NCBI RefSeq assembly: GCF_001719065.1
Contig: NZ_LWAF01000002.1
Coordinates: 186,001 to 250,000 of the forward strand
Length of the DNA stretch: 64,000 nt
Source of the DNA: Fervidobacterium thailandense
GTDB taxonomy: Bacteria; Thermotogota; Thermotogae; Thermotogales; Fervidobacteriaceae
Reading direction: 5' to 3'
Under the pieces are notes generated by a model. It did not search any database, was not told the origin of the DNA, and saw only the letters and a program-made list of their open reading frames with translations. The position numbers and the translations under genes are program-made. Shown here piece after piece: positions 54,236-59,355 of this stretch. Position 1 is the first letter of the stretch. Each line of letters opens with the position of its first letter.

Positions 54236-54664
54236 TTACTCGATCTTTATCTCCAGCGCCGGCTTTTCTTCCTTCTTCTTCGGCAACTCGAGTGTGAGAA
54301 CACCATCTACGTATTTTGCGGAGATGTTTTTCACGTCCACGTAGTCCGGTAGCAAGAAGGACCTTTCGAACTTTCCATAACTTCTCTCAACGAGTCTGTA
54401 GTTTCTGTTCTTCTCTTCGCGTTCGCTCTTTTTCTCACCGCTGATCTTCAGGACTCCGTCCTCGACTGTGACTTTTAGATCGTCCTTTTTCACACCAGGT
54501 AGCTCAACTTCGAGTACAACCTTGTCTTCCGTTTCGTAAGCATCAACCCTTGGAAGGAATTCAACATCCATCCTGAACGGTTTCATGAAGTCACTGAAGA
54601 GTCTGTCGATCTCCCTCTGGAGTTCCATGAATGGTTCGAACAAATCCGTTCTTCTGGCCAACAT
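54236..54664 (-). CDS. hsp20: Small heat-shock protein Hsp20
   Basis: 142 residues. N-terminal arm DLFEPFMELQREIDRLFSDF, alpha-crystallin domain (about 42-135) with VVLEVELPGVKKDDLKVTVEDGVLKISGEKK and VDGVLTLELPKKKEE (GxLxLxLP), and C-terminal LEIKIE providing the I-x-I type tail. Holds denaturing proteins soluble. ATG at 54664 after GGGAGGTGA. Controlled by a CIRCE-covered promoter upstream. Confidence 0.95.
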   Translation of the reverse strand: MLARRTDLFEPFMELQREIDRLFSDFMKPFRMDVEFLPRVDAYETEDKVVLEVELPGVKKDDLKVTVEDGVLKISGEKKSEREEKNRNYRLVERSYGKFERSFLLPDYVDVKNISAKYVDGVLTLELPKKKEEKPALEIKIE

Positions 54665-54751
54665 ACTTTCACCTCCCAACCCCTACTCTTTTTTCTTTTT
54701 TCTTTTTCCTCTTCTCAGCCGCTTCCAGCCGTTCCATCGATTTCCAACTAT

Positions 54752-54779
54752 ATTATACCTGTTATCACTCAGTTGTCAA
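54752..54779 (-). promoter_or_regulatory. hsp20 promoter
   Basis: Minus strand consensus TTGACA (54774-54779), 16 bases, TATAAT (54752-54757). Its -35 lies inside the CIRCE spacer. Confidence 0.85.
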
Positions 54780-54788
54780 GAGTGCTAA
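54762..54788. promoter_or_regulatory. CIRCE element (HrcA operator)
   Basis: On the minus strand TTAGCACTC (54780-54788), 9-base spacer, GAGTGATAA (54762-54770). The consensus is TTAGCACTC-N9-GAGTGCTAA, so only one base differs. It covers the -35 box of hsp20, so HrcA binding would block transcription until heat shock. Confidence 0.85.
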
Positions 54789-54997
54789 TATCAATCACGA
54801 TAGTTCCAAAAAATTTTAACTGAAAATAAATTTTTGTTGAGTAATTTCTATGTTACTAAAATTTCAATCACTCGTAACTATAAACTGATAGCAAGTTTTT
54901 GGACCGAAATGCATTCGTTCAGTCCTCGCTGGCTGAATTTTTTAAGTCTTTCTCGGCGAACCGTGAACTTTTCAACGTACCCACCATTTGGAATTTA
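54789..54997. other. AT-rich non-coding stretch
   Basis: About 210 bases between the hsp20 and padR promoters. No supported gene. A weak hairpin (TTCAG...CTGAA, 54918-54937) is followed by six T; I do not call it a terminator. Confidence 0.5.
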
Positions 54998-55026
54998 TTG
55001 ACAAAATTTCATTAGTAATATATAAT
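54998..55026 (+). promoter_or_regulatory. padR-nifX promoter, perfect consensus
   Basis: TTGACA (54998-55003), 17 bases, TATAAT (55021-55026): an exact housekeeping consensus. Such a strong promoter usually needs a repressor, and the first gene encodes one. Confidence 0.85.
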
Positions 55027-55076
55027 CAATACTGAGATAAAAAATGTTCTTAGTGTGAATGGTAGGGGTGGTAGAT

Positions 55077-55478
55077 GTGCGTAGGAAGTGTGGTTGTCGC
55101 CACGGTTTTGCGGGTGGTTTTCACCGTTGCGAGGAAACGGGATTTACAACTGGGGATTTTTTGGTGGCTGTGTTGATGAAGATGCTAAAGGAACGCCCCA
55201 TGCACGGATACGAGTTGGTCGAACGTTTGTCGAAGATCGATTATTATCCGTTCCCACACGATCCGAGCGTCGTTTACGGTGTTTTGAGAAAACTGGAAGC
55301 CCACGGACTCTTGACTTACACCGTTGAAGAGGGCAACGGCGGACTTAGGAAGATTTACAAACTGACACCAGACGGCGAAAGATTCTTGGAAGAAATGGTG
55401 GGATTCATAAGAAGGTTGAAGGGCTACTTTGAAGAATTCCTACGTTCGGAACGGTCTGAATTGAAACAAGATGTCTGA
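55077..55478 (+). CDS. PadR-family regulator with Cys/His-rich N-terminus
   Basis: 133 residues. The PadR winged helix (about 25-110) has LVAVLMKMLKERPMHGYELVERLSKIDYYPFPHDPSVVYGVLRKLEAHGLLTY and LTPDGERFL, followed by a dimerisation helix. Ahead of it is an unusual CGCRHGFAGGFHRC stretch (C5, C7, H9, H16, C18), which could bind a metal or Fe-S centre. GTG at 55077 after AGGGGTGG. Cotranscribed with the His-rich NifX-like gene 56 bases on, suggesting metal- or redox-sensing; this is inference. Confidence 0.85.
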   Translation: MRRKCGCRHGFAGGFHRCEETGFTTGDFLVAVLMKMLKERPMHGYELVERLSKIDYYPFPHDPSVVYGVLRKLEAHGLLTYTVEEGNGGLRKIYKLTPDGERFLEEMVGFIRRLKGYFEEFLRSERSELKQDV

Positions 55479-55534
55479 GAGATGTCTGAATGAGTCGGAA
55501 CGTGTGAAAAAAAGTGGAGAGGAGGCTTTGGAAG

Positions 55535-56029
55535 ATGGGCAAGGTCAGGCTCGCGATACCTACGGATGATGGTGTTACGGTGGCACCACACTTTGGAAGG
55601 GCGAAGTACTTTGTTCTGGTTGAGTTAGAAGAGGGTAAGGAAGTTTCAAGGACGTTGGTCGAGAACCTGCATGCACGCGGGCATGGTCATTACGATGAAC
55701 ACTACCTTGGACGTGGTAACCACGGGCTTCACGGCTACCATGGCAGCTGGCAAAATGGAAATGGGAACGGATACGGATACGGCCACCATCATGGAAACGG
55801 AAACGGATTTGGACACGGACTTGGACATGGTCACGGGCACGATGAGGTGTTCGCTTCCATCGGAAATGTTGATGGTGTGATCGCCGTTAGGATCGGGCAA
55901 CACATGTTCGAGGACCTGAAGAACAGAAAAGTAGGGGTCTACTTGGTTCGAGTTGGAACGAGTGTAAACGATGCCATTGCACAGTTCAGTGCCGGTACGC
56001 TTAGGGATGTTACCGTTAGAAAGGTATAA
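55535..56029 (+). CDS. NifX/NafY-like (dinitrogenase FeMo-cofactor biosynthesis family) protein with His/Gly-rich insert
   Basis: 164 residues. RNase-H-like NifX fold: N-part VRLAIPTDDGVTVAPHFGRAKYFVLVE, C-part DEVFASIGNVDGVIAVRIGQHMFEDLKNRKVGVYLVR. Between them, residues 46-102 are a low-complexity Gly/His/Asn insert with 14 histidines. Family domains bind Fe-S/FeMo-type clusters; many non-diazotrophs have them without known role, and no nif gene is in the window. The insert suggests Ni, Zn or Fe binding. ATG at 55535 nine bases after GGAGG. Followed by a terminator. Confidence 0.85.
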   Translation: MGKVRLAIPTDDGVTVAPHFGRAKYFVLVELEEGKEVSRTLVENLHARGHGHYDEHYLGRGNHGLHGYHGSWQNGNGNGYGYGHHHGNGNGFGHGLGHGHGHDEVFASIGNVDGVIAVRIGQHMFEDLKNRKVGVYLVRVGTSVNDAIAQFSAGTLRDVTVRKV

Positions 56030-56090
56030 TTTAGGGTGGGCTGTTGGAAAGTTGTGAAAGGGCGTCTCAAACTCAACGTCTAAAGCAAGA

Positions 56091-56120
56091 AACGGCCGGA
56101 ATCTCCGGCCGTTATTTTTT
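56091..56120 (+). terminator. Terminator after the NifX-like gene
   Basis: 10-bp stem (56091-56100 with 56104-56113, AACGGCCGGA/TCCGGCCGTT), 3-base loop, then ATTTTTT. Confidence 0.9.
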
Positions 56121-56233: not shown

Positions 56234-57265
56234 GTGGACTCCCTGAGGTCAACGCTGAGGTTGGTGTTGAGCTTTTTGTTCATCAATTTCCGGGATAGGT
56301 TCGTCTTCTTCATGAATATCGCCCTTCCCGTGGTATTTTTGATACTCTTCGGTTCGATTTTCGGAAAGGGGGATGACCAGAAACCTACGATCGCGTTCTA
56401 TTCGGACCTCGATGTTAACGTGGGAACAAATTATGTTAGATTGAGCAATATTCCGTCCGTTGACGAGATAAAAAGCATGGAATACGATGCGGTGATCGTT
56501 GCCGTGGATGATAAAATAGATGTTTACGTAAAAAGTCCCATTGACCTTGCACAAGGGGAATTCGAATTTTTCAGGCTCGCCTACGCGAGTGCCAAATCCG
56601 AGAAAAAGTTGGTGCAAGTCCGAACGCATGAATTGAACGTAGGGCGTTCGATATCCGAGCTGGAGTACACGCTACTCGGTGTGATAACGATATCGTTTTT
56701 GTCGATCGGTCTGAACGCCGGCGTTAGAGTCTACTCGGATTACGTACGTTACGGGCTGTTCAAGCGTTTTAACGTAACCCCCATCGATCCTCTAAGACTC
56801 TCCATGTGTGTGATGAGTGCCCAGATAATCACGGGAATAATATCTTCCGTACTCAACTTATTTCTATCGCTTGTGTTGTTCGGTGCCAATTTGTTCGTCC
56901 CACCGAACATGCTTTGGGCCTTTCTCTTAGCTGTGGTTGCAGCCGTTATGATAAACCTCGCCTTGGGAATTCTGGTTGCACTGATTTTCAAAAAAGCCGC
57001 ACCGGCTGTATCGCAGTTGGTATTCACAATACTGATATTTTTCTCGGGTGTCTATTTCCCCGTGAGTATATTACCGCGGTACCTAAGAATTGCTACGTAT
57101 CTGACCCCACCGAGGTACGTTCACCTGATGCTCCAGAAGGTGTACGGTGTGGAGACGCTAAGTTGGGGTTACTTTTGGTTCGTATCCGTTGCGTTCATTC
57201 TAATCGGTGCGTTGTTAACTGGACTGACAACGCGTAAGTTCTTGCGGATGACAAATTTAACTTAA
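56234..57265 (+). CDS. ABC-2 type exporter permease
   Basis: 343 residues. One N-terminal membrane helix (FFMNIALPVVFLILFGSIFG), an extracytoplasmic domain of ~125 residues, then five membrane helices with the ABC-2 motif YGLFKRFNVTPIDPLRL and the re-entrant FFSGVYFPVSILPRYLRIATYLTPPRYV. Works with the ATPase next door. The start is uncertain: GTG at 56234 touches the GGGGGG ribosome site, and a CTG at 56243 (M-SLRL region) would be better spaced. First gene of a permease-ATPase-permease operon. Confidence 0.85.
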   Translation: MDSLRSTLRLVLSFLFINFRDRFVFFMNIALPVVFLILFGSIFGKGDDQKPTIAFYSDLDVNVGTNYVRLSNIPSVDEIKSMEYDAVIVAVDDKIDVYVKSPIDLAQGEFEFFRLAYASAKSEKKLVQVRTHELNVGRSISELEYTLLGVITISFLSIGLNAGVRVYSDYVRYGLFKRFNVTPIDPLRLSMCVMSAQIITGIISSVLNLFLSLVLFGANLFVPPNMLWAFLLAVVAAVMINLALGILVALIFKKAAPAVSQLVFTILIFFSGVYFPVSILPRYLRIATYLTPPRYVHLMLQKVYGVETLSWGYFWFVSVAFILIGALLTGLTTRKFLRMTNLT

Positions 57266-57316
57266 CTCTTAACTTAACAAGGATCCCCGTTTAAGAAAAA
57301 GGAGGTTCGGCCCCAC

Positions 57317-58195
57317 ATGGGGGAAAACCGTGAGGTTGTGCTGCGCGTCGAGAATCTAAAGAAATGCTACGGTAACGTTAGAGCTGTCGACGGAGTATCG
57401 TTCGTCGTAAAGAGGGGACAACTGGTATCGATACTGGGACCGAACGGTGCTGGGAAGACCACCACGATTGAGATTATCGAAGGATTGAGGATACCGGACC
57501 ACGGTACCGTCGAATACTTCGGAACGTCAAACACCATCACAAATGAAGTGAAGGAACGCTTGGGAGTGTGTTTTCAGGAGAACTTCTTTTTTGAAGATTT
57601 AACCGTCCTGGAAACTTTGAAACTCTACGCTTCGCTGTACAGACGGTCCCTACCACTGGAGGATATCATCGAAATGTTCGATTTGGAAGGGAGCCTAAAA
57701 AAACGCGTGCGCCATCTGTCCGGGGGCCAAAAGCAACGTTTGGCCGTTGCACTCGCGTTTGTCAACGACCCAGAACTGGTGTTCCTCGACGAACCCACGG
57801 TCGGTTTGGATCCACACGCCAGGCACCACCTGTGGGATGTGATCAAGTATTTCAAATCACAAGGTAAATCGATCATTTTAACTACACATTACATGGAGGA
57901 GGCGCACCAACTTTCAGATATGGTTTACATTATGGACCACGGAAAGATAATTGCCCAGGGAAGTCCCCAAGAGCTCATAAACTCTTCCGGTTTGAACGCA
58001 GTCATCGAGTTCCCCGCAACGCACGCGTACCTGTTCGAGGAAACCGTGACAACCGGTGACGTTGCGATAGTAAGTACTCCGGACGTTCCCGGAGCGATCA
58101 AGAGGCTACTCGACGCCGGTGTCGAGAATTTCATCGTCAGACATCCAACCCTCGAGGACGTGTTTTTAAAATTAACGGGTCGAAGGATTGACTGA
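57317..58195 (+). CDS. ABC transporter ATP-binding protein
   Basis: 292 residues. LGPNGAGKTTTIEIIEGL (Walker A), VCFQENFFFEDLTVLE (Q-loop), HLSGGQKQRLAVALAFVNDPELVFLDEPTVGLDP (signature and Walker B), TTHYMEEAHQLSDMVYIM (H-loop), and a C-terminal DRR-type tail. Drug or lipid export class (ABC-2/CcmA-NodI group). ATG at 57317; GGAGG ten or more bases upstream. It lies between two permease genes, so both may form a heterodimer with it. Confidence 0.93.
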   Translation: MGENREVVLRVENLKKCYGNVRAVDGVSFVVKRGQLVSILGPNGAGKTTTIEIIEGLRIPDHGTVEYFGTSNTITNEVKERLGVCFQENFFFEDLTVLETLKLYASLYRRSLPLEDIIEMFDLEGSLKKRVRHLSGGQKQRLAVALAFVNDPELVFLDEPTVGLDPHARHHLWDVIKYFKSQGKSIILTTHYMEEAHQLSDMVYIMDHGKIIAQGSPQELINSSGLNAVIEFPATHAYLFEETVTTGDVAIVSTPDVPGAIKRLLDAGVENFIVRHPTLEDVFLKLTGRRID

Positions 58196-58230
58196 TTTTC
58201 TCGAGTCAAGGACTGTTGGGGAGGAAAGCA

Positions 58231-59355
58231 ATGGTGGGGAATTTCTTCGAGAAAAGGGACCTGGTGGTTTTGGATGCGTTGTTCAAACAACTTTTCATCA
58301 GGTCGAAAGAGGCTGTCTTCTGGCTTGTAGTCTTTCCAACTATTCTTTTTTTGATCCTAACCTCCATTTTCGGCAACGTCCAGAAAAACGTCACCGTCAA
58401 AGTTGCGGTGATTGGTGAGAGCCAGGTTCTAAAAAAGGTCTTTGACTCAGTCCAGCAAATTTCCGCTAAGTTTTTTCCACACAGTGAGAGGGAACGGTTC
58501 GACGAGTACTTGAAAGCCCTGGAGGGTGAAACCTTCGACGTGCTCCTGGTCCTTCCCGATGGATTCGATTCCGCTTACTCTCGCGCGCTACTACTGAAGC
58601 GCACCAAACTTTTCAAACCGGTTACGGTGGATGTACACTACGTTCCCTTTCGAGAAGGTTCAAAGCTTGCGTTCAATATGGTCAAAGGTATCTTGGACGC
58701 GTTGGACATCCACAGTAAAGTCGAAATGGAGATCCACAACCTTTCAACGCACCGCGTAGATTACAACACTTTTATCTTTCCCGGGGTCGTCGGAATGGCC
58801 CTCCTTTCTGTCTATCTCTTTGGCTTCATGAACGACCTGATCTGGTTGAACAGAAAGAAGATAATAAAGCGCCTTACGATTAGTCCATTCAGTTTACTCA
58901 AGCTTTACCTCTTCGTGGCCCTCGTCAACTTGACAAGCCTCGTCCTCGGGCTTTCGCTTCTCACATTCGTGGCATGGATAAAAGGTGTGAACATTGCCAC
59001 CTATCTACCGAGTCTCATCGTGAACTCCCTCGTTTCGGCACTGGTACTGACGTTTTTAACACTCGCCGTCTTGATCTTCGAAAACCGACCGTCGGTCCTT
59101 GTGGCCTTCCAACAGATATTCTTCCAGGTTCAGATGTTCGCCGGAGGTTTCTACTTTCCGCTCAAACAAATCCCACCGTTCGTTCGGGCCGTGGCACGCT
59201 TTTTACCTATCACCTACACGGTCGACTCGATGAGAAAAGTAGTGGGGCTCAACAGCATCACCTCTAACCACTACATCGTACCACTCATGTACCTGCTGTT
59301 CTCGATGCTCGTGGTCATCGTGGGTATCAAAAGACTCCACAGGTACGAGGACTGA
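58231..59355 (+). CDS. ABC-2 type exporter permease, second subunit
   Basis: 374 residues, same plan as the first permease: N-terminal helix (VFWLVVFPTILFLILTSIFG), ~145-residue outer domain, then five helices including the KRLTISPFSLLKLYLF coupling region and AGGFYFPLKQIPPFVRAVARFLPITYTVDSM. ATG at 58231 after GGGGAGG. The two permeases are divergent paralogues, pointing to a heteromeric exporter. Confidence 0.88.
   Translation: MVGNFFEKRDLVVLDALFKQLFIRSKEAVFWLVVFPTILFLILTSIFGNVQKNVTVKVAVIGESQVLKKVFDSVQQISAKFFPHSERERFDEYLKALEGETFDVLLVLPDGFDSAYSRALLLKRTKLFKPVTVDVHYVPFREGSKLAFNMVKGILDALDIHSKVEMEIHNLSTHRVDYNTFIFPGVVGMALLSVYLFGFMNDLIWLNRKKIIKRLTISPFSLLKLYLFVALVNLTSLVLGLSLLTFVAWIKGVNIATYLPSLIVNSLVSALVLTFLTLAVLIFENRPSVLVAFQQIFFQVQMFAGGFYFPLKQIPPFVRAVARFLPITYTVDSMRKVVGLNSITSNHYIVPLMYLLFSMLVVIVGIKRLHRYED

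Follow-up and report, generated by a model that had tools for sequence, protein, structure and literature searches.

A conserved PadR-NifX-like gene pair of Thermotogota with a predicted operator and a possible role in metal sensing and buffering

Two adjacent genes in the 2.04-Mb genome of a heat-loving member of the Thermotogota, probably of the family to which Thermosipho and Fervidobacterium belong, encode a PadR-family regulator with an N-terminal Cys/His front and a NifX-like protein interrupted by a Gly/His insert. What such a pair does, and whether it works as a unit, is the question raised by this locus. Anaerobes widely encode stand-alone PF02579 (NifX-like) and DUF5320 proteins, whose control has hardly been studied. 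A sequence-only reading of the 64,000-nt stretch of DNA analysed here (the window; contig C2, 186001-250000) had proposed a metal- or Fe-S-responsive two-gene module, perhaps a sensor with its metal buffer. Our analysis leads to a more specific reading, to which we give about an even chance: the PadR protein would be a repressor that acts locally, responds to metal or redox state through its Cys/His front and controls an IssA-like iron(-sulfur) buffer.

The features of the locus are collected in Table 1. The promoter scan found TTGACA at 54998-55003 and TATAAT at 55021-55026, which bears out the exact consensus promoter claimed ahead of the PadR gene. The promoter is followed by the PadR gene, the NifX-like gene and an intrinsic terminator. 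The PadR start is likely GTG 55077, preceded by AGGGG (55064-55068), rather than the alternative ATG 55059, and the NifX-like start is likely ATG 55535, preceded by AGGAGG (55520-55525), rather than GTG 55514. Elsewhere in the window, a CIRCE-like element (54762-54788, TTATCACTC-N9-GAGTGCTAA, with one mismatch in the left arm) overlaps the exact -35/-10 promoter of a divergent hsp20 gene (54236-54679, minus strand), which is likely a HrcA-controlled small heat-shock gene.

Table 1. Features of the PadR-NifX-like locus (window coordinates)
Feature	Position	Strand	Evidence
Predicted operator, three palindromic boxes TCAnTAnTGA in 17-bp steps	54992-55035	+	Conserved in 7 PadR-NifX loci
Sigma-70-type promoter, TTGACA-17-TATAAT	54998-55026	+	12/12 consensus matches; conserved in relatives
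PadR-family regulator with CxCxH...HxC front	55077-55478	+	PF03551, E 2.4e-14; winged-helix model; Foldseek to PadR structures
NifX-like (PF02579) protein with Gly/His insert	55535-56029	+	PF02579, E 5.4e-15; Foldseek
Gly/His-rich insert, residues 47-102	55673-55840	+	36% Gly, 23% His; takes the place of the EHxPG loop found in plain relatives
Intrinsic terminator of the two-gene unit	56091-56120	+	10-bp stem (56091-56113) with 7 GC pairs, then T tail ATTTTTTGTT

The first protein matched PF03551 with 53.5 bits (gathering score 27) and is the only member of this family in the genome. Its AlphaFold model (pLDDT 85.7) contains a confident winged helix and a long C-terminal helix, and Foldseek matched it to the PadR structures 9qbc, 4ejo, 5zi8 and 2esh. 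The assignment as a PadR protein with a C-x-C-x-H...H-x-C front was thus confirmed by the Pfam match and the residues themselves. Read from GTG 55077, the front is MRRKCGCRHGFAGGFHRCEETGF, and this part of the model has low confidence. C5, C7, H16 and C18 are invariant in all seven orthologs that share the NifX-like partner, and most other front residues vary; H9 is not invariant among the seven. This Cys3-His front may serve as a metal, Fe-S or redox sensor.

The second protein is the single PF02579 member of the genome (55.9 bits, gathering score 26.3), and its match falls in two stretches split by the insert. The model has the PF02579 fold, with MJ0327, TM1290, PH0822 and TM1816 as the best Foldseek matches, followed by MTH1175, the NafY core, NifX and ORP; the match to 2qtd had an E value of 8e-7. 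Of its 16 histidines, 14 lie between H46 and H102, which agrees with the NifX-fold protein interrupted by a Gly/His insert described before, and its whole sequence contains no cysteine. Residues 51-99 were modelled with pLDDT below 50 and are probably disordered. The calculated pI is 7.3 for the protein and about 7.4 for the insert. The insert is His-rich in all seven NifX-like relatives with the pair (20-38% His). No PF00148 match was found genome-wide, consistent with the reported absence of nitrogenase genes. NifX/NafY nitrogenase cofactor chaperones are defined by a nitrogenase in the same genome, and a nitrogenase cofactor role was therefore rejected here.

Lack of conservation of the pair in relatives had been named beforehand as a result that would speak against the module. 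Our results showed a conserved operon in seven genomes, which come from two genera: in 2/2 genomes of the window's genus (g1), to which the closest relative, the sister MAG G001, belongs, and in 5/9 genomes of a second genus (g2). The remaining four g2 genomes lack both genes, and two of these four are at least 97% complete. Because the upstream neighbours differ between the genera (Hsp20 and rpe in g1, a glutamine-synthetase-like gene, named by eye, in g2), the pair appears to be kept as a unit. Among 103 Thermotogota genomes, at least 80 contain both families, and in at least 44 of these a PadR and a PF02579 gene lie within 1.5 kb of each other among the matches listed (PadR leads in 23 and NifX in 19, and in 2 the genes have opposite orientations). 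At a density of roughly two PadR and two PF02579 genes per 2 Mb, fewer than one genome with such a close pair would be expected by chance. A profile search of genome contigs with the PadR alignment, which possibly left out near relatives, returned, apart from the sister MAG, only distant PadR proteins (from Planctomycetota, Chloroflexota and others), and no NifX-like gene was found within up to 4 kb flanking these distant genes.

The more distant Thermotogota PadR-PF02579 loci contain 4Fe-4S proteins, a MinD/NUBPL-type ATPase with ferredoxin motifs, or an ArsP-like permease. Three further arrangements were observed. In six genomes (loci L124-L129 of G052-G057), one operon encodes an ArsP-like permease together with a PadR protein with a MRCAKFGF-type front and a NifX-like protein whose C-terminus is coiled-coil-like. 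In G043 and G044, a 4Fe-4S protein gene is inserted in a PadR/NifX-like operon of this kind. In G030 (L020, 1185-1803), which has no PF02579 protein, a PadR protein with a KANCGCCHW front is encoded beside a metal-binding-looking 81-aa protein (MCCCGCCCFHCCCCHCCCC...) with no Pfam match.

A common operator was predicted from the aligned upstream regions of the seven pairs, in which the conserved blocks beyond the promoter hexamers are the TCAnTAnTGA boxes. In the window, the boxes lie under the -35 (54992-55001), in the spacer (55009-55018) and just after the -10 (55026-55035). Hexamers and boxes are conserved together upstream of the pair in relatives, and sites across the family were compiled in an 18-site table. 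At up to 3 mismatches the pattern matched once in the whole genome of the window and the reversed control not at all; any regulon would therefore be local. The four g2 genomes without both genes contain no site. Dyad symmetry was also considered as a stand-alone proof of the operator and was rejected, since column shuffling was not significant and reached the observed symmetry in 389/5000 (long dyad) and 1521/5000 (short dyad) shuffles. Because symmetry alone proves nothing, our operator argument is based on conservation and held-out prediction.

For the held-out prediction, a matrix trained on the seven pair sites, with the -10 core omitted, was used to scan loci of other genera in the family. 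The top match fell within about 75 bp upstream of a DUF5320-first operon in G003, G007, G008, G010, G013 and G014, and within the same range upstream of a PadR-DUF5320-NifX operon in G004. These seven are exactly the family genomes that have the PadR ortholog and a plain NifX. No site was found before DUF5320 in G005 and G011, which contain DUF5320 and NifX without this PadR ortholog. Sites also lie ahead of solitary NifX genes in G007, G008 and G010. The solitary NifX gene of G011 (L042) has a weak full-matrix match (score 13.5, shuffle p 0.007), perhaps a decayed site. The held-out prediction supports the link between regulator, operator and target, in which the PadR ortholog would control the NifX-like gene and/or the DUF5320 operon through a common operator. 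The two-gene module thus stood in its core, through the conserved pair, the conserved predicted operator and the held-out prediction. The separate promoter claimed for the neighbouring exporter did not, as no plus-strand site of at least 9/12 occurs between 56113 and 56234.

DUF5320 (PF17253) occurs in 9/9 genomes of genera g3, g4 and g5 and in 0/11 genomes of g1 and g2; at the family level it is found only where NifX has no His insert. DUF5320 proteins are rich in Gly, Arg and aromatic residues. The PadR fronts follow the same division: those of orthologs paired with DUF5320 are Arg/Gly, and those of orthologs paired with the His-insert NifX are Cys/His. DUF5320 and the Arg/Gly front probably gave way to the His insert and the Cys/His front in a single switch, and the correlation of front, insert and DUF5320 should therefore be counted as one event rather than several. 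Since orthologs without the Cys/His front accompany the same predicted operator, this front appears to be dispensable for DNA recognition.

The gene context in relatives gave a hint of the metal. In G007 and G008, a ferritin gene and then a desulfoferrodoxin gene lead up to the operator, which is followed by two DUF5320(-like) genes and, farther downstream, by the PadR gene. PadR is preceded in G014 by ferritin and a desulfoferrodoxin-like gene, a desulfoferrodoxin-like gene (named by eye) precedes the operator in G010, and in G013 the genes ahead of the DUF5320 operon are peroxiredoxin-like and Fur/PerR-like (named by eye). At loci L171, L176 and L179 of Thermosipho-like genomes (a probable genus name), the ferritin and desulfoferrodoxin genes immediately precede PadR or the operator/DUF5320 cluster. 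Within g1, the genus of the window, the module does not lie beside iron genes. Nearly all relatives keep ferritin whether or not the module is present, so the module would not be the sole iron store. These ferritin, desulfoferrodoxin, peroxiredoxin and PerR neighbours suggest a link with iron and with oxygen stress and, together with the 4Fe-4S genes of the distant loci, make iron or iron-sulfur the best guess; it is gene context that favours iron over nickel, zinc or copper.

Several other readings of the locus were weighed. The same regulator-target module could handle nickel, zinc, cobalt or copper, with the insert acting like the nickel stores of the UreE/HypB/SlyD type and the front forming a Zn or Ni site. 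Ni/Zn-binding His stretches are known from such stores, and inserts of 20-38% His resemble them; Cys3His is a common Zn ligand set, which the front matches. We still regard this choice of metal as unlikely, because the predicted operator of the relatives would drive DUF5320/NifX genes next to ferritin and desulfoferrodoxin, an iron/oxygen context, and no transporter for Ni, Zn or Cu was noticed adjoining the inspected loci. The same neighbours, including the peroxiredoxin and Fur/PerR-like genes, would suit a redox or oxygen sensor that uses its Cys front as a thiol or labile Fe-S switch and whose operon belongs to an oxygen-defence response in which the NifX-like protein scavenges damage-released iron. 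CxC pairs can be redox-active, and that of the PadR front potentially is. However, the PadR orthologs of exactly those relatives have no Cys front, so the oxygen-defence context and the Cys residues are not in the same genomes, and this reading seems distinctly unlikely.

The NifX-like protein might also be a carrier of a cofactor or Fe-S cluster, as MrpORP, ORP and NifX are, rather than a store, with PadR sensing cluster status. Its fold matches ORP, the NafY core and NifX, and PadR-PF02579 loci elsewhere in the phylum include ferredoxin, MinD/NUBPL-type ATPase and permease genes. A carrier without cysteines, with no carrier ATPase at the locus and with an unusually long low-complexity His insert for such a function has, in our view, only a small chance of being correct. 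The remaining reading takes PadR as an ordinary LmrR/PadR-type drug-responsive regulator of the downstream ABC exporter and the NifX-like gene as a passenger. DrrA/DrrB-like ABC genes do follow at 56234-59355, downstream of the terminator, and are also present in G001. This reading is highly improbable, given the strong terminator between pair and exporter, the lack of an ABC exporter adjoining the pair in the g2 genomes inspected, and the operator on NifX and DUF5320 genes in relatives. On the same grounds, the exporter was rejected as part of the unit.

We return to the metal-responsive repressor and buffer, which fits the invariant Cys/His set, the His-rich insert and the ferritin and desulfoferrodoxin neighbours of relatives. 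Starting from the computed pair, its conservation and a predicted operator that co-occurs with the PadR ortholog, we infer repression, effector, metal identity and buffering as follows. PadR would bind the boxes over the -35, spacer and -10 of its own promoter and repress both genes. Across the wider family, its ortholog would act on the NifX-like gene and/or the DUF5320 operon through the same site. Oxidation of the Cys3-His front, or its loading with a metal ion or an Fe-S species, would release the DNA. The derepressed operon would then yield the NifX-like protein, and the insert, placed in the loop of the EHxPG motif of ordinary members, may bind and buffer surplus metal, most likely iron and possibly together with sulfide in the manner of IssA, until the metal is needed again. 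The separate DUF5320 protein under the same operator would be the low-complexity part in Thermosipho-like relatives. With a defined regulator, predicted operator and regulon, the inducer of PadR would reveal what NifX-like and DUF5320 proteins handle, and would also tell whether, in bacteria, an IssA-like iron-sulfur store exists alongside ferritin.

We found no earlier description of a PadR-controlled metal (most likely iron) buffering module, and each part has known relatives. The regulator shares the winged helix, the C-terminal dimerisation helix and a probable autorepressor role with the PadR family (PF03551; TM0937/2ESH, Rv3488, LmrR). It differs in its N-terminal front, in a predicted operator of boxes 17 bp apart, and in a predicted NifX-like/DUF5320 target instead of an efflux or phenolic-acid gene. 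The NifX-like protein shares fold and core motifs (HFG, N44, G121) with proteins of the MTH1175/TM1290/TM1816 type, whose EHxPG loop is replaced here by a Gly/His insert of 40-56 residues. MrpORP is an Fe-S biogenesis protein containing a PF02579 domain (PMC6345978); in MrpORP/ORP carriers this domain takes part in Fe-S or Mo-Cu-S handling. The protein studied here has a single PF02579 domain (22.7 bits against the NF041136 cut-off of 450), without the Mrp ATPase domain or the CxHFGHC or CDH cysteines.

The closest comparison is with Pyrococcus furiosus IssA (PF02579/IPR003731), which combines a NifX domain with a Gly/aromatic/cationic tail and stores iron and sulfur as thioferrate (PMC5524996). 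Both have a NifX/MTH1175-type domain and a disordered Gly/aromatic-containing segment, come from anaerobic thermophiles and are proposed metal stores. IssA is recognised by thioferrate binding with nanoparticle formation, by a Gly-rich C-terminal tail, Arg-rich and cationic, and by a high pI, whereas the low-complexity segment is internal here, His-rich and nearly neutral, in a protein without Cys that is encoded with a PadR regulator. DUF5320, the low-complexity Gly-rich partner under the same predicted operator in relatives, differs from the insert as a separate small Arg/aromatic-rich protein, and its composition resembles the IssA tail (PMC5524996). A further-reaching and rather doubtful proposal is that the disordered sensor front mimics the chemistry of its target, an Arg/Gly front matching Arg/Gly DUF5320 and a Cys/His front matching the Gly/His insert, so that sensor and store compete for one inorganic ligand; bacteria would then have an IssA-type iron-sulfur store that is split and under PadR control, with the low-complexity partner re-invented inside the NifX domain.
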